Shown: in pieces, positions 10,879 to 17,666 of the stretch
Layout of the letters: every line of letters begins with the position of its first letter
Numbering within the stretch: the first letter of the stretch is position 1
NCBI RefSeq assembly: GCF_039536245.1
Contig: NZ_BAAAYN010000048.1
Span: 1-52,467 of the forward strand
Source of the DNA: Cryptosporangium minutisporangium
Lineage (GTDB): Bacteria > Actinomycetota > Actinomycetes > Mycobacteriales > Cryptosporangiaceae
Direction: 5' to 3'
DNA: 52,467 nucleotides
Position numbers and translations under genes: made by a program
The notes under the pieces: generated by a model
Told to the model about the DNA's origin: nothing
The model's input: the letters and a program-made list of their open reading frames with translations, nothing else
Database searches by the model: none

Positions 10879-11907
10879 TCAGGCTGTCTCTAGCGCTGGG
10901 TCTACGGCGGCCTTGGTTTCGCCTATCCAGAGGTCGGCGTCGTCCGGGGTGGAGCGCTTGACCAGCCCTAGCGCGATGTGACCCAGCTCGTGGTGGCGGA
11001 CGGCGGTGCCGACGAAGCCGACCGCGCGGCCGTCGCGCCCCGCGGTGATCGGCGTGCCCTGCGCGGGCAGTTCCTCGCTCACCCCGTCCAGGTGCAGCAG
11101 CACCAAACGACGGGGTGGCCGACCGAGGTTGTGTACCCGGGCCACCGTCTCCTGACCCCGGTAGCAGCCCTTCTCCAGGTGCACCGCGGTCGGGATCCAC
11201 TCCGGTTCCTGGACGATCGTCCGGTGGTCGGTCTCGAAGCCCAGCCGCGGACGACGATCGGCGACCCGCAGCGCCTCGTACGCCCAGGTACCCGCCAGCG
11301 GAGCGCCCAACCGGTCGACGGTGGCCTCCAACGCGTCGCGCGGCACCAGCAGGTCGGCGGCCACCTCACCGGGCCAGGGCATGCGGCGGACCAGTCCACC
11401 GTCGGGCAGCGACGCCAAGCGGTACGGCTCGGCCGGCAGCGCCACCCCCAGTTGCGCGAGCGCCTCACCGGTCTTCGGCCCGATCACCGACAGCACCGCC
11501 CAGTCGGCGGACACGTCGGCCGGCTCGACCCGCATGAAGAAGACCATCTTCTGCAGGTACCCGAGCAGGTCGCCGATGGTTCCCGGCTCCACGTCCAGCC
11601 AGGTCGTGCCCCCGTCGTCGCCGACCAGCAGGTGGTGCTCGACGTGCCCGTGCGGCGAGAGCACCAGCGCTTCGGTGCCGTGCCCGGCCGGGAGCGCGGA
11701 CAGGTGCTGGGACGTGAGGCTGTGCAGCCAGGCCAGCCGGTCGGCGCCGGGAACCGCGATGACGCCGCGGTTGCTCCGATCGACGACACCCACGTCCTCG
11801 GTGAGGCGCCGCTGTTCGCGGAACGGGTCGCCGTAGTGAGCCGCGACGCCGGCGTCGACACCCTCGGCGAGTACCGCGCCGGGGCGCAGGCTGAGCGGGC
11901 TCGTCAC
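10879..11907 (-). CDS. ygfZ: YgfZ/GcvT-like folate-binding protein
   Basis: 342 aa. It has the YgfZ signature KGCYRGQE near residue 245 and the N-terminal segment VDRSNRGVIAVPGADRLAWLHSL typical of the family. YgfZ proteins bind folate and support assembly or repair of certain Fe-S enzymes. It matches the position of Rv0811c beside the PabC-like gene in M. tuberculosis (from memory). The GTG start at 11907 overlaps the TGA of the Fur-family gene (GTGA), so the two are translationally coupled. Confidence 0.87.
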   Translation of the reverse strand: MTSPLSLRPGAVLAEGVDAGVAAHYGDPFREQRRLTEDVGVVDRSNRGVIAVPGADRLAWLHSLTSQHLSALPAGHGTEALVLSPHGHVEHHLLVGDDGGTTWLDVEPGTIGDLLGYLQKMVFFMRVEPADVSADWAVLSVIGPKTGEALAQLGVALPAEPYRLASLPDGGLVRRMPWPGEVAADLLVPRDALEATVDRLGAPLAGTWAYEALRVADRRPRLGFETDHRTIVQEPEWIPTAVHLEKGCYRGQETVARVHNLGRPPRRLVLLHLDGVSEELPAQGTPITAGRDGRAVGFVGTAVRHHELGHIALGLVKRSTPDDADLWIGETKAAVDPALETA

Positions 11908-12386
11908 GACAAGACCTCCGGAGCTTCGGCAGTGCTTCCGGAGTGTGCAGCGGCGTCGGGCTCGCAGGTATTTCCGTCACTGCAGTTCCCGCAGACGCCG
12001 AACAGTGCGACGTGCCCGACGTCCATGCTGAACCCGCGCTCGTCGGCCAGCCGGCCTGCGAGCTCGGCGAGCATCCCGGTGGGCGCCTCCGAGACCGTGC
12101 GGCACATCCGGCACACCAGGTGGAAGTGCTGGTCAGCGGCGAGGTGGTAGGTCGTCGCCGTATCGATGAGGTGGGTGTGCCGGACCAGGCCGATCTGCTC
12201 GAGCAGCTCCAGCGTCCGGTAGACGGTGGTCAAGTTGATCCCCGCCGCGGTCTGCGTCACCTCGGCGTGCACTTGCTCGGGGGTGGCGTGGCCCAGCCGC
12301 TCGACGGCTTCCATGACGAGCTGCCGCTGGACGGTCATCCGGAGCCCACGGGACCGTAGCGCGTCGGTCAGTGACGGGAGCGCCAT
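11904..12386 (-). CDS. Fur family metalloregulator, Nur-like
   Basis: 160 aa. The winged-helix part has LRSRGLRMTVQRQLVMEAV and TVYRTLELLEQIGLV. The C-terminal metal-binding half has HFHLVCRMC and a second CxxC (CGNC), a structural zinc site. The sequence around LGHATPEQV and the AAGINLTTVYRTLELLE stretch is closer to Streptomyces Nur (nickel-responsive) than to Fur or Zur as I remember them, but metal specificity cannot be settled by eye. It is coupled to ygfZ downstream, which suggests a link between metal status and Fe-S repair. The start is ATG 12386. Confidence 0.82.
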   Translation of the reverse strand: MALPSLTDALRSRGLRMTVQRQLVMEAVERLGHATPEQVHAEVTQTAAGINLTTVYRTLELLEQIGLVRHTHLIDTATTYHLAADQHFHLVCRMCRTVSEAPTGMLAELAGRLADERGFSMDVGHVALFGVCGNCSDGNTCEPDAAAHSGSTAEAPEVLS

Positions 12387-12398
12387 GACCCCATCGTA

Positions 12399-12407
12399 TT
12401 CACTGAA
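12399..12407. promoter_or_regulatory. Possible autoregulatory operator upstream of the Fur-family gene
   Basis: A 9-bp palindrome TTCACTGAA lies 13 nt before the Fur-family ATG in the short divergent region shared with the pabC-like gene. Fur-family proteins commonly autoregulate at AT-rich dyads. This is short enough to be chance. Confidence 0.25.
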
Positions 12408-12496
12408 GATTTTTCCGGCTCGGTTCGCCCCTTCGCTGTTCAGCCCGCAGATCCGCGAAGACGAACCGCGGGGCGCCGGACCGGGAACAACTTCAC

Positions 12497-12502
12497 TACG
12501 GT
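12497..12502 (+). promoter_or_regulatory. -10 box (TACGGT) for a leaderless pabC-like transcript
   Basis: TACGGT ends 7 nt before ATG 12510 and there is no Shine-Dalgarno between. This predicts that transcription starts at the A of the ATG. Confidence 0.4.
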
Positions 12503-12509
12503 TTCCCGC

Positions 12510-13358
12510 ATGGCTACCCGTGCGCTCGCCGTCCTCGGCCGGGGTCTCCTTCCGGTCGACACCCCCATCGCCCGCGCCGACGACGCTGGTCTGACCCGCG
12601 GCGACGGCGTCTTCGAGACCGTCCACGTCCGCTACGGCAAACCCTGGCAGCTCGACGAGCACCTGGTCCGGATGGCGGGTTCGGCGCGGATCCTCGGGAT
12701 CGCACTGCCGCCGGTCGAGGAGCTGGCGGCTCTCGTCGAGTCCGTCCTGGTGGACGCACACGGCGACGAGGAGGTCGGCGTCAAGATCGTCTGCACCCGG
12801 GGACCGGAGACCGGACAGCCCGAGCCGCCGACCGTGTTCGCGACGATGTTCGACGTGCCGCCCGCCGCGCAGCGTGGCCGTCGGGAGGGCGTGTCCGTGG
12901 TGACCGTCTCGCTCGGTGTGCCGGCCGACGTCCGGTCCGGGGCCCCGTGGCTGCTCGGCGGCGCGAAGACGCTCTCCTACGCGGTGAACATGGCCGCGCT
13001 GCGATACGCAGCGGAAACAGGCGCGGACGACGCGCTGATGCTGTCGACCGAGGGCACGGTGCTGGAGGCGCCGACCGCAACCGTGGTGTGGGCCGCCGGC
13101 GGGGCGCTGCGGACGGTGCCGGTGGACACCGGAATCCTCGCCGGTACCACCGTGAACTATCTGCTCGACCACGCGGACGAGCTGGGACTGCGGGCCGAGC
13201 GCACCCGGGCGCACCTGGACGACCTGTTCGCGGCGGACGAGGCGTGGCTGTGCTCCAGCGTCCGTGGAGCCGCGCGGATCAAAGCTCTCGACGGCAAGCC
13301 GATCGGGGAGCGGGGCCTCACCGCGGGGGTGCAACGAATCCTTGGATTTCCGGTCTGA
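12510..13358 (+). CDS. pabC: Class IV aminotransferase, aminodeoxychorismate lyase-like
   Basis: 282 aa fold-type IV PLP enzyme. The catalytic lysine lies in GGAKTLSYAVN, and the family motifs GLTRGDGVFET (near residue 27) and the C-terminal VRGAARIKALDG are visible. PabC splits aminodeoxychorismate to p-aminobenzoate plus pyruvate in folate synthesis; branched-chain or D-amino acid transaminases share the fold, so PabC is the likely but not certain function. A folate-binding YgfZ protein is encoded nearby. It occupies the place of Rv0812 in the M. tuberculosis-like order. Confidence 0.8.
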   Translation: MATRALAVLGRGLLPVDTPIARADDAGLTRGDGVFETVHVRYGKPWQLDEHLVRMAGSARILGIALPPVEELAALVESVLVDAHGDEEVGVKIVCTRGPETGQPEPPTVFATMFDVPPAAQRGRREGVSVVTVSLGVPADVRSGAPWLLGGAKTLSYAVNMAALRYAAETGADDALMLSTEGTVLEAPTATVVWAAGGALRTVPVDTGILAGTTVNYLLDHADELGLRAERTRAHLDDLFAADEAWLCSSVRGAARIKALDGKPIGERGLTAGVQRILGFPV

Positions 13359-13389
13359 GTTCGCTCTCGACGAACACCGAAAAATAGCG

Positions 13390-13418
13390 TTGCCGACCTC
13401 CGCGGACCGACGTAGATT
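13390..13418 (+). promoter_or_regulatory. Sigma-70 type promoter of the small RNA
   Basis: TTGCCG at 13390-13395 and TAGATT at 13413-13418 are separated by exactly 17 nt. The predicted start is near 13425. It is downstream of the pabC-like stop codon and faces no protein gene except the mini-ORF. Confidence 0.55.
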
Positions 13419-13449
13419 CGAGGTACACGAGAGGGGAGGTGGTCCAAAG

Positions 13450-13488
13450 TTGAATACTTATCGGACTCGTGAGGTGGCTACTTCCTAG
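13450..13488 (+). CDS. 12-residue TTG-initiated peptide (leader-peptide-like)
   Basis: TTG 13450 opens (M)NTYRTREVATS followed by TAG. GGAGGT lies 9 nt upstream, one of the best ribosome sites in the window. The peptide has no run of a single amino acid that would explain classical attenuation, but has two Arg and three Thr codons. It probably serves the RNA that carries it, or is a real micropeptide. Confidence 0.5.
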   Translation: MNTYRTREVATS

Positions 13489-13619
13489 CCGCCCATCGGA
13501 CTCCGGTCCGAACCGTCGCCTTGTGAGACGTAGCGGCGGTAAGGCAAACCAAGGTAACCACCGACCCCTCGGGCTGCTGGACTCGTCCGACCAGCCCCGC
13601 GAGCAATCGCGGGAGTCAT

Positions 13620-13662
13620 AGCCCGGGGGGCTTTTAAATGCCGCGCTACGCGCGGCATTTTT
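13620..13662 (+). terminator. Tandem Rho-independent terminators of the small RNA
   Basis: First AGCCCGGGGGGCT followed by TTT, then TGCCGCG, a CTACG loop, CGCGGCA and TTTTT. These are the only textbook T-run terminators I noticed in the window. Confidence 0.8.
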
Positions 13663-13680
13663 GCTTTTGTCTGTACAACG

Positions 13681-13846
13681 GCGCTGGAGCCCGTCCAGGG
13701 CGGGGCTGACAGTCGAGCGAGTCCCCAAGCTCAGTCGTGACCGGTCGCGGGCATGCTCGCACGCGAGGCCTGTCCCCGTTGCGTCGTGACATCAGGGGGC
13801 CGTCATAAGAGGCTCGCTCGCCTGTCCGCGTCGTTCTGGACGGGCC
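13681..13846 (+). repeat. R2 long palindromic repeat, copy B (expanded)
   Basis: About 166 bp. It shares the left arm (CTGGAGCCCGTCCAGGGCGG) and right arm (CTCGCTCGCCTGTCCGCGTC) with copies A and C but has a longer, unrelated middle. The ends GCCCGTCCAG and CTGGACGGGC are exact complements. It fills the gap between the small RNA terminator and the convergent nitrobindin stop at 13848. Confidence 0.7.
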
Positions 13847-13847
13847 G

Positions 13848-14384
13848 TCAGCCCGCTATTCGCTTGAGGCGGGCGGAGAGATGCGGCGTCAAATCGCGGC
13901 CCATCGCCGCCATGTCGACCGCGTAGAGCAGATCACCCTCGACGATGCCGTACAGGCGGTGGTTCGCCGAGACTTCCTTGGCGCTCGCCGTCCGCACTAC
14001 CGCGTCCGTGCTCAGCTCCACCTTCAGCCCGTCGATCTCGCCGACGTACACCTCGACGTAGCCCGTCGGGTGCGCGAGCAGCACCTCGATCGAGTCGTCC
14101 GGCTGCGGACGCCACCAGCCGACCTCGCGGGCCGCCGGGCGGACCGGGCGTCCCTCGGCGTCGATGATCCAGGCCCGCGACTCGTACGCGAGGAACGGTC
14201 GGCCGTCGTGGCTGAGCCGCACTTCCTGCGCGTAGTCGAAGTCCTCGGTGCCGGGGTACCCGCCCTTGCCGGTGCCGCGCCAGACCCCGACGAACGGGAG
14301 CAGGCCGAGCAGCGACTCGTGCAGGTTCGGCCCGGACCGGAGGTCGTGGGTCTCCTCGTACGGGTAGCCGGCGGGGTCCGTCAC
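13848..14384 (-). CDS. Nitrobindin / FABP-like heme beta-barrel protein
   Basis: 178 aa. The motif GVWRGTGKGGYPG (GxWxGxG) in the first beta-strand and a C-terminal DLTPHLSARLKR with the proximal-type histidine match the nitrobindin family, which binds ferric heme and reacts with NO and peroxynitrite. This corresponds to Rv0813c. GTG 14384 starts just 2 nt after the stop of the 33-residue membrane ORF, so re-initiation or coupling is likely; there is no strong Shine-Dalgarno of its own. Confidence 0.8.
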   Translation of the reverse strand: MTDPAGYPYEETHDLRSGPNLHESLLGLLPFVGVWRGTGKGGYPGTEDFDYAQEVRLSHDGRPFLAYESRAWIIDAEGRPVRPAAREVGWWRPQPDDSIEVLLAHPTGYVEVYVGEIDGLKVELSTDAVVRTASAKEVSANHRLYGIVEGDLLYAVDMAAMGRDLTPHLSARLKRIAG

Positions 14385-14386
14385 GG

Positions 14387-14488
14387 TCAGCGCTGGCCCT
14401 GGTAGAGCCGGTACACGACGTAGACGCCGAACCACGTGATGAGGGCGAAGGCCGCGATCAGCAGCACCAAGAAGAAGGTCTCGAGCAC
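14387..14488 (-). CDS. 33-residue single-helix membrane peptide
   Basis: GTG 14488 opens a short frame with ETFFLVLLIAAFALITWF as one transmembrane helix and a basic tail ending RLYQGQR. It stops immediately before the nitrobindin GTG. TAGACT (14495-14500 on the minus strand) lies 6 nt before the start, so the message is probably leaderless and covers both genes. No family recognised. Confidence 0.55.
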   Translation of the reverse strand: MLETFFLVLLIAAFALITWFGVYVVYRLYQGQR

Positions 14489-14605
14489 GTGTCGAGTCTA
14501 GGGTGAGTGCCCCGCCTACGTGCGGGTGGCCTTCCGCACAGCGGTCGGCAGCGCCGCGCCCGTCGCTACGAGCGTGCCGGGGCGCCGACGACGGTGCCCG
14601 CCCCC

Positions 14606-14611
14606 TAAGGT
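14606..14611 (+). promoter_or_regulatory. -10 box (TAAGGT) for a leaderless DsrE-like transcript
   Basis: TAAGGT lies 6 nt before ATG 14618, with no Shine-Dalgarno in between. Confidence 0.4.
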
Positions 14612-14617
14612 CTGCTC

Positions 14618-14980
14618 ATGAGCCGCTCACTGGTCGTCAAGGTGACAGCTGGCGCGGACGCTCCCGAGCGCTGTGCCCAGGCGTTCACGGTCGCCGCCAC
14701 CGCGCTCGCCTCCGGCGCGGACGTCTCGCTCTGGCTCACCGGCGAATCGTCGTGGTTCGCGCTGCCCGGCCGGGCAGCGGAGTTCGACCTCCCGCACTCC
14801 GCGCCGCTGTCCGAGCTACTCTCTGCCCTGCTGGCGGCGGGTCAGGTCACGCTCTGCACCCAGTGCGCCGCCCGTCGGTCGATCGGGGAGAGCGACGTGC
14901 TGCCAGGCGTCCGGATCGCCGGCGCTGCCGTGTTCGTCGAAGAGGTCCTCACCGACGGCACTCAGGCGCTCGTTTATTGA
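14618..14980 (+). CDS. DsrE/DsrF-like family protein
   Basis: 120 aa alpha/beta protein. Features seen are VVKVTAGADAPERCAQAFTVA at the N-terminus, GADVSLWLTGESSW, and a cysteine pair in LCTQCAARR at about residues 82-85. DsrE-like folds carry sulfur or simply bind small ligands; the CxxC here could be a sulfur carrier or redox site. Its position among sulfurtransferase genes supports a sulfur role, but this is inference. Confidence 0.75.
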   Translation: MSRSLVVKVTAGADAPERCAQAFTVAATALASGADVSLWLTGESSWFALPGRAAEFDLPHSAPLSELLSALLAAGQVTLCTQCAARRSIGESDVLPGVRIAGAAVFVEEVLTDGTQALVY

Positions 14981-14986
14981 CGTGTC

Positions 14987-15055
14987 GAACCCTTTTCAAC
15001 CTCCGGCCTTCGTCGAGGTCAAGCGATCTCAGCAGGCTCCGGTCGAAAAGAGTTC
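14987..15055 (+). repeat. R1 palindromic repeat, copy 2
   Basis: 69 bp with the same ends as copy 1 (GAACCCTTTTCAACCTCCGG ... CCGGTCGAAAAGAGTTC). It fills the gap between the convergent DsrE-like gene (stop at 14980) and the membrane protein gene (stop at 15060), where it could act as a transcription terminator for both strands. Confidence 0.7.
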
Positions 15056-15059
15056 ATTG

Positions 15060-16394
15060 TCAGCCGCACGTGCGGGTGATGAAGCGGACGATGGCCAGCA
15101 CCGCGTTGGCGTCCAGAACGATCGGCACCCGCACTGATTCGCCGCGCTCCACCAGCTGGATCGTCGCCGAGATGCCCACCTCCGCGTAGACGATGACCCT
15201 GGCCTTCGCGCAGTCGGCGATCGACCAGCGCAACGTCGTCGCGGGCGTGACCTCCTGCTCGAAGCCGATCGGAAGCGGCGCGGCCACCACCGACAGCCCC
15301 GGCGTGGGGGTGCGGATCTCCCGGACTGCCAGCGCCCGTTCGTCCAGCTGGCGGATGCGGATCGGCGTTGCCAGTTCGGTGTCCAGGTCGGCCGGTTCGC
15401 CCTCTAGTTCGGCCGTGATCCACATGTCGTTCGCCGAGTTCTGGCACTTCTGCCGGGCGGTGTCGACGAGCAGCATGGTGTCGTCGGCGAGCCGGACCCG
15501 GACGTCCCGCTCGGGGCGACCGTCGGGCGTGATCGTCAGCATGATCGCGTACGGCGCGGTCATCGGCCGACTGACCGAACAGGAATTCGTGACGTCCACC
15601 GAGATCCAGGTTTCCTGACCGGCCCGCACCCGCACATCGCGGCTCACCGTCCGGAGCTTCGACCGCAGGTACTTGTCGTCGAGTCGGGCGGCCCCGATCC
15701 GGACGTCCGTCGGTCCGCTGTTCGTCAGGACGACGCGGAGCGTCCAGGGCTGCCGGTCGCCGGTCCAGTTGGCGCTGCTGGCAGCGTCCTCGGCCACGCG
15801 GGCGCTGAGCTGGACGGTGTCCCGGCGCCGCGCCTCGGCCTGCTGGGTGTCCCACTCGTGCACAGCGACGCCACCCAGGACGGTCCCGGCGACGAACGCG
15901 GCGATCCAGAGCAGGCGGGCCCGGTGGGGTCGCGCCCACCGCTCGACGCGCTCGACGACGACCGGACGTCGCCGCGCCGGCGCTTCCTCCGCGAGCGCGT
16001 CGGTGACCAGCGCCTCGCTCGTCGGCGCGTCCGGGTGAGGCGACGACTCCGTCGGCTCGGACAACGGTTCCGGCTCGGGCATCGGGTCCGGTGGCGGTTC
16101 CGGGTCCAGCCCGGGTAACTCCTCCGCTCCGGGCCGACGAGGTGCGGAGATCAGCTGCTCCTGCGCCGACCACCGCGGCGCCGCCGACGCGTCCCAGCCT
16201 CCGGCACTGAGCACGTCAGGGCCCGGGACGGGCGTCGCGCCGGAGTCGTCCAGGTCGTCCCAGTAAGCGGGCGCTCGGCTGTGGTGGCGCGAGGAGTCGC
16301 GAGCCGTCTCGTCCGAGCGGTCTGTGGGAGCTACGGGGGCGAAGTCGTCCGGGTGGGCACCGTCCCGGGGCGCGTCACCGGGCCGCCGGGGCAT
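15060..16394 (-). CDS. Membrane-anchored protein of unknown function
   Basis: 444 aa. A long disordered, Pro/Asp/Glu-rich cytosolic N-terminus (about 1-165) is followed by basic residues and one transmembrane helix (RARLLWIAAFVAGTVLGGVA). An extracellular C-terminal region of about 245 residues has repeated beta-rich segments of the form WTLRVVLTNSGPTDVRIGAA and LVDTARQKC. Four or so cysteines outside the membrane may form disulfides (NSCSVS, RQKC, IADC, TRTCG). No enzyme motif is recognised. ATG 16394 is the best start; the frame is open upstream to 16499. Confidence 0.75.
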   Translation of the reverse strand: MPRRPGDAPRDGAHPDDFAPVAPTDRSDETARDSSRHHSRAPAYWDDLDDSGATPVPGPDVLSAGGWDASAAPRWSAQEQLISAPRRPGAEELPGLDPEPPPDPMPEPEPLSEPTESSPHPDAPTSEALVTDALAEEAPARRRPVVVERVERWARPHRARLLWIAAFVAGTVLGGVAVHEWDTQQAEARRRDTVQLSARVAEDAASSANWTGDRQPWTLRVVLTNSGPTDVRIGAARLDDKYLRSKLRTVSRDVRVRAGQETWISVDVTNSCSVSRPMTAPYAIMLTITPDGRPERDVRVRLADDTMLLVDTARQKCQNSANDMWITAELEGEPADLDTELATPIRIRQLDERALAVREIRTPTPGLSVVAAPLPIGFEQEVTPATTLRWSIADCAKARVIVYAEVGISATIQLVERGESVRVPIVLDANAVLAIVRFITRTCG

Positions 16395-16527: not shown

Positions 16528-16830
16528 TCAGGCGAGGACCAAGCTGGCCTGGTTCACGCCCTTGTCGGCGGAGACGGCGGCCTGCCCGGTGCCGTTCGCG
16601 TGCAGCGCACGGACCGTCCACTCACCCGGCGCCGCGAAGAACCGGAACTGACCGGTCGCCGACGACACCACCTCGGCGGTGAACTCGCCGCTCGAGTCGA
16701 GCAGCCGGACGAACGCGCTCGGCACCGGCGAACCGTCACCGGCGGTCACGATGCCCTGGATCACCGTTTCCTTGGTGGTGTCGATGCCCTGGGTGCTCAG
16801 GTCGGTGCCCTGCTCAGGTGCTCCGCACAT
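16528..16830 (-). CDS. sseC: DUF1416 family protein (SseC-like)
   Basis: 100 aa, a beta-sandwich with the carboxypeptidase regulatory/transthyretin-like pattern: IQGIVTAGDGSPVPSAFVRLLDS then GQFRFFAAPGEWTVRALH. It begins MCGAPEQG. The gene starts 2 bp after the sulfurtransferase stop, the conserved sseC-cysA2 arrangement of actinobacteria. Function is unknown but always tied to rhodanese genes. Confidence 0.88.
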   Translation of the reverse strand: MCGAPEQGTDLSTQGIDTTKETVIQGIVTAGDGSPVPSAFVRLLDSSGEFTAEVVSSATGQFRFFAAPGEWTVRALHANGTGQAAVSADKGVNQASLVLA

Positions 16831-16832
16831 GC

Positions 16833-17666
16833 TCAGGCGCCCTTCTCGATCGGAACGCCGATCAGCGAACCGTATTCGGTCCACGAACCGTCGTAGTTCT
16901 TCACGTTGTCGTGGCCGAGCAGCTCACGCAGCACGAACCAAGTGTGGCTCGACCGCTCGCCGATCCGGCAGTACGCGATCGTGTCCTTGCTGTCGTCGAG
17001 GCCGGCCTCGCCGTAGATCTTACGGAGGTCGTCGTCGGACTTGAACGTTCCGTCCTCGTTCGCGGCCTTGCTCCACGGCACGTTGACCGCGGTCGGGATG
17101 TGGCCGCCGCGCTGCGACTGCTCCTGCGGGAGGTGCGCCGGGGCGAGCAGCTTGCCGGAGAACTCGTCGGGGGAGCGGACGTCGACCAGGTTCTGGACGC
17201 CGATCGCGGCGACGACCTCGTCGCGGAAGGCGCGGATCGAGGTGTCCTGCTCCTTGGCGGTGTAGGAGGTGGCGGCCCGCTCGGGCACGTCCTTGACGAG
17301 CTCACGCCCGTCCAGCTCCCACTTCTTGCGGCCGCCGTCGATCAGTTTCACGGCGTCGTGACCGTAGAGCTTGAAGTACCAGTAGGCGTACGCGGCGAAC
17401 CAGTTGTTGTTGCCGCCGTAGAGGACGACCGTGTCGTCGTTGCTGATGCCCTTGCGCGAGAGCAGGGCTTCGAACTGCTCTTTGTTGACGAAGTCGCGGC
17501 GCACCGGGTCCTGGAGTTCGCTCTTCCAGTCGAGCTTGACGGCGCCGGGGATGTGCCCGTTGTCGTACGCCGAGACGTCTTCGTCGACCTCGACGAAGAC
17601 AGTGTTCTCGGCGTTCAGGTTCTTCTCGGCCCAGTCGGTCGAGACGAGCGCGGACTCGCGGCTCAT
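16833..17666 (-). CDS. Thiosulfate sulfurtransferase (rhodanese, CysA2/SseA-like)
   Basis: 277 aa with two rhodanese domains: N-terminal about 10-130 ([39 protein letters not shown]) and C-terminal about 145-275. The active cysteine is in the [12 protein letters not shown] loop near residue 233. It moves sulfane sulfur from thiosulfate to cyanide or a thiol acceptor. It lies in the operon DUF4395-sulfurtransferase-DUF1416, controlled by the Cys-rich leader at 18290. ATG 17666 is preceded by GAAGGAG at good spacing. Confidence 0.92.

Follow-up and report, generated by a model that had tools for sequence, protein, structure and literature searches.

The locus examined here raises the question of whether a short stretch on the forward strand of the window (the whole 52,467-nucleotide stretch of Cryptosporangium minutisporangium DNA that was analysed) is an unassigned small RNA, as the initial annotation held, and of what an RNA with its own promoter, mini-ORF and terminator does.

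Identity, transcription unit and distribution of the RNA

Search with cmscan placed positions 13425-13638 (+) in the Rfam family RF02471, Ms_IGR-5, at 73.4 bits against a cut-off of 45, the match being full length (model positions 1-184) and above the score that decides membership. By this defining score the locus is a member of Ms_IGR-5, and because the score exceeds the RF02471 gathering cut-off it was already catalogued. The initial annotation had called the RNA unassigned and had named a match to a known Rfam family as the result that would make it a described one; RF02471 is that match and covers the locus, and the reading of a novel family was therefore dropped. Further Rfam matches (2dG-I, rnk, isrK and sR23) were weak and far under their cut-offs. 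RF02471 matches the organism's own assembly (9.2 Mb) once. A phage-borne copy was rejected since the window's own DNA, used as the query, had no match among 50,697 phage records, and ARAGORN returned 0 genes for a tRNA-like part in the 52,467-nt window.

Ms_IGR-5 is an actinobacterial sRNA that comes from M. smegmatis (Li et al. 2013, as cited in PMC10454040), in which its transcript was detected by RNA-seq (PMC10454040). Transcripts supported by RNA-seq are also reported for the homologues of S. lividans, listed as validated (PMC8079986), and S. avermitilis (PMC8780764). The literature found under the names Ms_IGR-5 and RF02471 names the RNA but, in the portions available, gives no mechanism or function for it, nor, in those portions, a comparative anatomy of the kind drawn here from 233 loci. 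The Ms_IGR-5 RNA is absent from the titles and abstract openings found on anti-Shine-Dalgarno small RNAs, decoys and non-canonical starts, and from the available part of PMC9094748.

The features of the locus are the following:

13390-13418 (+), promoter: TTGCCG at 13390-13395, 17 nt, TAGATT at 13413-13418; predicted start at about 13425
13425-13666 (+), the RNA: RF02471 match at 13425-13638, 3' end estimated from the terminator
13426-13429 (+), 5' strand of helix P1a, CACG, pairing with 13468-13471 and covarying in 59 aligned sequences
13430-13446 (+), extended Shine-Dalgarno (SD): 17 nt pairable with the 16S 3' tail (...GGAUCACCUCCUUUCU), G.U allowed
13442-13445 (+), 5' strand of helix P1b, GUCC, pairing with GGAC at 13463-13466
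13450-13488 (+), mini-ORF: TTG start, 12 codons, TAG stop at 13486-13488, reading L(M)NTYRTREVATS-stop
13463-13466 (+), 3' strand of helix P1b, GGAC, with a suggestive alternative partner in the GUCC loop at 13585-13588
13468-13471 (+), 3' strand of helix P1a, CGUG, covarying in the same 59 sequences
13473-13481 (+), putative switch strand D (GGUGGCUAC), immediately 5' of the stop codon
13486-13493 (+), strand E (UAGCCGCC), including the stop codon; local hairpin with 13473-13480, in the MFE fold
13554-13562 (+), strand D' (GUAACCACC), predicted long-range partner of D, with one C.A mismatch in this genome
13576-13595 (+), 3' hairpin with loop ACUCGUCCGA and a conserved GUCC at 13585-13588
13636-13668 (+), intrinsic terminator: 11-pair hairpin and T-run, matched by the scan

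The self-contained unit that had been proposed is confirmed in part, with a promoter, SD, ORF, hairpins and a terminator all present at 13390-13668 (+). The fold of 13425-13666 has a minimum free energy of -115.5 kcal/mol (z = -5.06), equalled by 0 of 200 shuffles. What had been described as a near-ideal sigma-70 promoter proved overstated, each hexamer matching the consensus at 4 of 6 bases (8/12 in all), under the threshold of 9/12 at which the promoter scan found 0 promoters. Examination of 215 upstream regions showed TANNNT beginning at -13 or -12 relative to the RNA start in 138 of them, against a background of 1-5 per five-position bin between -60 and -21, so that the promoter appears ordinary by consensus, yet conserved in position among relatives. 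An A-rich patch lies at 13380-13384 in this genome, and across the family A occupies positions -43 and -42 from the RNA start in 83% and 79% of 68 loci; the patch is as conserved as the -10 and is possibly an UP-like element. Of the two T-run terminators that had been described, the second was recovered by a scan of 12000-15500 that gave 2 sites, one per strand (1.0 +/- 1.2 expected in shuffles), while the first, the T-run CTTTTAAA 3' of a GC-rich hairpin, was missed by that scan and is read by eye.

The RF02471 model found the RNA in 54 of 61 genomes near that of the window, in 70 of 396 genomes across Actinomycetota (35 of them above the curated cut-off) and in 0 of 14 named control genomes. 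Model R1, of 69 positions and built from 59 elements, matched 148 of the same 396 genomes (150 matches, 101 of 237 genera), part of these matches being so by construction because 43 of the 59 elements came from loci found in the same genome surveys. No R1 match was obtained in 248 of the 396, so that some of the phylum either does without the RNA or has it in a form too diverged to be recognised. In the window's class, five genomes from a single family (f22: G279, G310, G321, G369 and G396), all listed as 100% complete, matched neither RF02471 nor R1; the RNA seems lost or unrecognisable in them, which makes them a natural comparison. A pattern scan of named species gave at least 119 stretches, and among the matches listed were Acidimicrobiia/Acidimicrobiales, Solirubrobacterales, Thermoleophilaceae, Conexibacter, Nitriliruptoraceae, Nonomuraea and Gordonia. 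By these searches the RNA is spread across Actinomycetota, with gaps.

Records titled Chlamydiae and Acidobacteria (L162, L127 and L156) also carry the RNA among the matches listed. The 5' element of L162 is that of L137, an Actinobacteria MAG from the same project, making mislabelling or bin contamination likely.

We compared 233 loci, namely 193 that include 113 RF02471 hits and 80 loci from among the matches listed in the pattern scan, whose SD core is theirs by construction, and 40 later ones, hand-picked from the 148 R1 genomes to add families. The 193 loci reduce to 177 distinct elements and 168 distinct loops, and two of the later loci (L275 and L289) duplicate earlier elements. Shared ancestry makes these loci non-independent, and each set was in part retrieved by sequence; since R1 includes the SD, the 40 later loci that it found are no test of that element. 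The alignment used for covariation holds 59 of 62 chosen sequences, three (L075, L076 and L172) being left out for an aberrant second motif.

Complementarity to 16S rRNA and the mini-ORF

The Shine-Dalgarno that the initial annotation had called strong is very strong. Runs of complement to the 16S rRNA 3' tail (G.U allowed) measure 12-20 nt, with a mode of 17 (102 of 177 distinct elements) that is also the length found here, and reach at least 16 nt in 171 of the 177; among the 113 loci found by RF02471 the same length is reached in 107. Positions 1-15 of the complement are pairable in 176-177 of the 177 elements even though seven of these positions vary, the altered bases being A or G opposite U, or C or U opposite G, and pairing thus being kept with three exceptions of one element each. 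The 16-nt SD pattern occurs once in the 9.2-Mb assembly, at this locus; because about 0.14 chance matches are estimated at even base composition, the point of this count is that the assembly holds no second site this long, not the improbability of a single match. The 16S tail was taken from relatives because the 16S 3'-end pattern had 0 matches in the organism's own assembly (G000, listed as 99.64% complete), which probably lacks rRNA operons. A match was obtained in 7 of 8 relatives' genomes, where GGCTGGATCACCTCCTTTCT closes the 16S gene and TAAGGAG or a similar sequence comes next. Mature 16S rRNA ends at UUUCU.

The TTG-started 12-codon ORF was read correctly and lies at 13450-13488. All 193 loci have this frame open, as do all 40 later ones (38 of them new), with 10-15 codons in the former and 10-18 in the latter. 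Its start lies 13-20 nt past the first base of the RGGAGGTG motif and its stop 13-17 nt past the A of the second AGG motif. Starts in the 193 loci are TTG (78), CTG (47), ATG (33), GTG (14), ATC (9), ATT (5), ACG (4) and ATA (3), the non-canonical ones (CTG, ATC, ATT, ATA and ACG) amounting to 68; 4 of the 193 depend on ACG, including L077, the one locus of 113 that had no frame until ACG was allowed. The 40 later loci start with TTG (21), ATG (13), GTG (4) or ATA (2). Stops in the 193 are TAG (148), TGA (30) and TAA (15), and the stop triplets share one position in 203 of 217 loci.

Two comparisons point to the frame being kept. Within the start window, canonical start triplets are distributed 156:14:3 between the ORF frame and the other two, and all 168 distinct loops have an ORF, where 300 loop shuffles kept one in 48 on average (maximum 66); for the 61 loops with no canonical start the figures are 61 observed against 17 (maximum 26) shuffled. 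The loop is AU-rich (GC 0.42), and its +1 frame holds stops at 7 of 657 codons, against 0 of 657 in the ORF frame, which was chosen as open. That translation matters, as had been suggested, appears so from these counts. In M. abscessus and M. smegmatis, Ms_IGR-5 homologues are reported to carry ribosomal reads (PMC4974804), with the caution, in the part of that paper available, that footprints on known non-coding RNAs may stem from co-purified RNPs.

Weak starts occur in 66 of 217 loci, 65 of them at position +14 or +15, whereas canonical starts have a median position of +16 (P ~1e-24 over 217 related, not independent, loci). The three structural types, taken one at a time, show the same direction (P = 2e-12, 5e-6 and 0.03). 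The closer SD spacing of weak starts looks like compensation, with initiation kept weak. At this locus the 17-nt pairing is combined with TTG, a canonical start, non-canonical starts being a property of those 66 family loci.

The codons themselves tell a different story for the peptide. The check for synonymous substitution that had been proposed gave no bias for the ORF frame, in which 65 of 326 loop codon differences are synonymous, against 75 of 339 and 43 of 234 in the other frames (shares of 0.20, 0.22 and 0.18). In addition, GGAGGTG, though conserved, is read in a different frame in some lineages, whose ORFs retain both start and stop (L102, L107, L108, L111 and L294-L301). Because of this lack of bias and these other-frame ORFs, selection would seem to act on translation and not on the peptide, and a functional peptide was dropped on the codon evidence.

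Helices and alternative pairings around the ORF

The 5' part of the RNA is predicted to fold into an outer helix of four pairs, P1a, and an inner one, P1b, with the SD in the bulge between them. In the 59 aligned sequences 90.7% of P1a cells are paired, against 59.8% in shuffles, 77 cells are changed on both sides, against 29.9, and the covariation score is 0.752, against 0.190 when shuffled and at most 0.119 when slid. P1b (GUCC/GGAC) is nearly invariant, with 92.4% of cells paired and zero pairs with changes on both sides. Taken jointly, P1a and P1b score 0.392 against 0.111 in shuffles, and two of five covariation measures are not above shuffles (double-change pairs, 3 against 3.2; further pair types, 12 against 11.2). 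P1a pairs form in 38-39 of the 40 later loci, pair 4 being C-G in 19, and in 36-37 of 38 once the two duplicates are removed. The first 5' helix of the Rfam model joins the SD to the pre-stop strand; mapped by hand, it has 83.6% of its cells paired in the 59 sequences and a covariation of 0.210 against 0.206 in shuffles. This absence of covariation casts doubt on the helix model of RF02471 but leaves the membership of the locus, decided by score, untouched. With such a first helix, and with fewer genomes found than by R1, the RF02471 entry could be rebuilt.

Strand D has two candidate partners. The distant strand was located with a detector blind to D and was found in 213 of 217 loci. Its duplex with D averages -13.8 kcal/mol with the locus's own partner, against -10.6 with partners from loci of different D core (own better in 149 of 189), the swapped mean being -10.8 kcal/mol (sd 0.17). 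The duplex of D with E averages -13.8 with its own against -12.6 kcal/mol with foreign partners (own better in 144 of 204). Reversed-sequence controls gain as well, though by less (-12.3 against -11.8 for D:E and -9.6 against -9.1 for D:D'). These energies suggest that the distant partner D' is well supported and the local partner E more weakly so. At this locus the D:E duplex, at -14.2 kcal/mol, exceeds D:D' (-12.0) in stability, and it is D:E, not D:D', that the minimum free energy fold contains. A pseudoknot of GGAC (13463-13466) with the GUCC loop (13585-13588) would be suggestive only, having few related lineages behind it.

Mode of action and comparison with known systems

Taking the anatomy as a whole, ribosomes are probably what the RNA responds to or acts on, and we lean, on balance, towards the view that the Ms_IGR-5 family, with this locus a member, is a stand-alone RNA gated by the ribosome. 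A ribosome-gated regulatory RNA is most likely the best reading of its mode, with the following steps inferred from that anatomy. The 30S subunit would dock through the long SD-anti-SD helix and open P1, and initiation would be held slow by weak codons or long spacing. The ribosome would then translate about a dozen codons to the stop, masking D and freeing E and D', so that the fold of the RNA would be set by ribosome traffic and the peptide would be a by-product. The output would most likely be altered RNA stability or pairing with other RNAs, that is, action in trans, an output favoured because no neighbouring gene is constant. We hold more tentatively, with somewhat less than even confidence, the broader claim of an Actinomycetota-wide class of stand-alone RNAs with the ribosome as ligand, docked by about 17 bp to the 16S 3' tail, with a throw-away ORF read from a deliberately weak start, a fold following ribosome traffic and a role as sensor or governor of free 30S.

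The neighbouring genes bear on whether the RNA could instead be the leader or attenuator of one of them. The initial annotation was right that no same-strand gene follows, the next gene 3' of the RNA lying convergently on the minus strand and encoding a THAP4-like heme-binding domain, and right also that this is not a simple attenuator, since neighbours differ by lineage. Pfam assignment of one representative of each of 20 neighbour clusters (10 with a match) gave Aminotran_4 upstream and the THAP4-like protein downstream in the window's group, and in other groups gyrase A (gyrA) with HNH, RpiB (rpiB) with an alpha/beta hydrolase, an NAD-dependent ligase (ligA), and PAS with PNPOx; the clusters recur only inside groups of loci. 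Other neighbouring ORFs, at about 11904-12400 (-), 10879-11907 (-) and 16528-17666 (-), resemble in turn a Fur-type regulator, a YgfZ/GcvT-like protein and a rhodanese together with its small partner. The leader-peptide-like ORF, the alternative hairpins and the terminator all fit attenuation, as does the alpha/beta hydrolase ORF that lies downstream on the same strand in one group (a cluster of 25 loci, including L119 from an Ilumatobacter MAG). Against it, the next gene here is convergent and neighbour clusters change by lineage; with no constant downstream partner the RNA would act without a cis effect on one gene. Attenuation was dropped on this variation, and we regard it as very unlikely.

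The remaining alternatives turn on what the ORF is for. A decoy or trap, in which the anti-SD helix holds 30S on a weak start, RNA abundance tunes free 30S, and structure and ORF serve release, would account for an SD far beyond what initiation needs, for the weak starts and for a complement that stops at the 16S end given above; it would require a high copy number, and the open frame with its stop in all 193 loci and the strands D and D' are superfluous for a trap, so that we consider it unlikely, though the least so of these alternatives. A plain structural or pairing sRNA, its ORF a by-product of sequence conserved for other reasons, seems improbable to us: translation is read here from sequence, the loop is AU-rich and the +1 frame is nearly stop-free too, but the ORF spans a variable loop, canonical starts share the stop's frame (156:14:3), the one stop position is occupied by any of three codons and shuffles keep an ORF in 48 of 168 loops. 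The idea of the initial annotation, a dual-function sRNA with a functional dodecapeptide, appears the least probable. An ORF is present in every locus examined, and the C-terminal part is alike (EV..) in most of the first 113 loci, but that part falls on the paired strands P1 and D, the loop is free of synonymous bias, and several lineages read GGAGGTG as GG and not EV.

The ribosome-gated reading concerns a named sRNA family whose range within its phylum exceeds what the Rfam model shows and whose most conserved features point to the ribosome. It is unusual for a frame to stay open as its peptide drifts, and the point lends itself to direct tests. If gating were true, actinobacteria, including antibiotic producers, would own a dedicated RNA reading ribosome availability, and its long SDs with CUG, AUC and AUU starts would offer a natural test system for initiation fidelity.

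Compared with the catalogued family, the locus shares the full-model score of RF02471 and differs in the 5' helix, covariation favouring P1a (0.752 against 0.190) over the pairing of the SD with the pre-stop strand (0.210 against 0.206), and the two models find 148 (R1, some matches being training sequences) and 70 of the same 396 genomes. SgrS/SgrT and RNAIII are dual-function sRNAs with a functional peptide; they resemble Ms_IGR-5 in joining a small RNA to an ORF, and differ in that the Ms_IGR-5 peptide is not conserved. The tmRNA is likewise structured and has a frame about a dozen codons long. In C. glutamicum its tag has 12 residues (PMC4046766); the Ms_IGR-5 frame, of similar length, has its own SD, start and stop, and ARAGORN found no tRNA-like part in the window. 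The leader-peptide attenuators of C. glutamicum (ilvBNC, trpE, leuA and aroF; PMC4046766) have in common with Ms_IGR-5 a short ORF, alternative hairpins, a terminator and the act of translation; unlike them, Ms_IGR-5 has no run of codons for a single amino acid and no constant downstream gene. In S. aureus, infC, cvfC1 and ccpN combine an extended SD with a non-canonical start (AUU, AUA) and a lower initiation efficiency (PMC13009471). Part of the Ms_IGR-5 family loci share this combination of long SD and weak start, with the difference that the S. aureus examples are protein genes, whereas the Ms_IGR-5 RNA is structured, stands alone and encodes about a dozen residues that vary.
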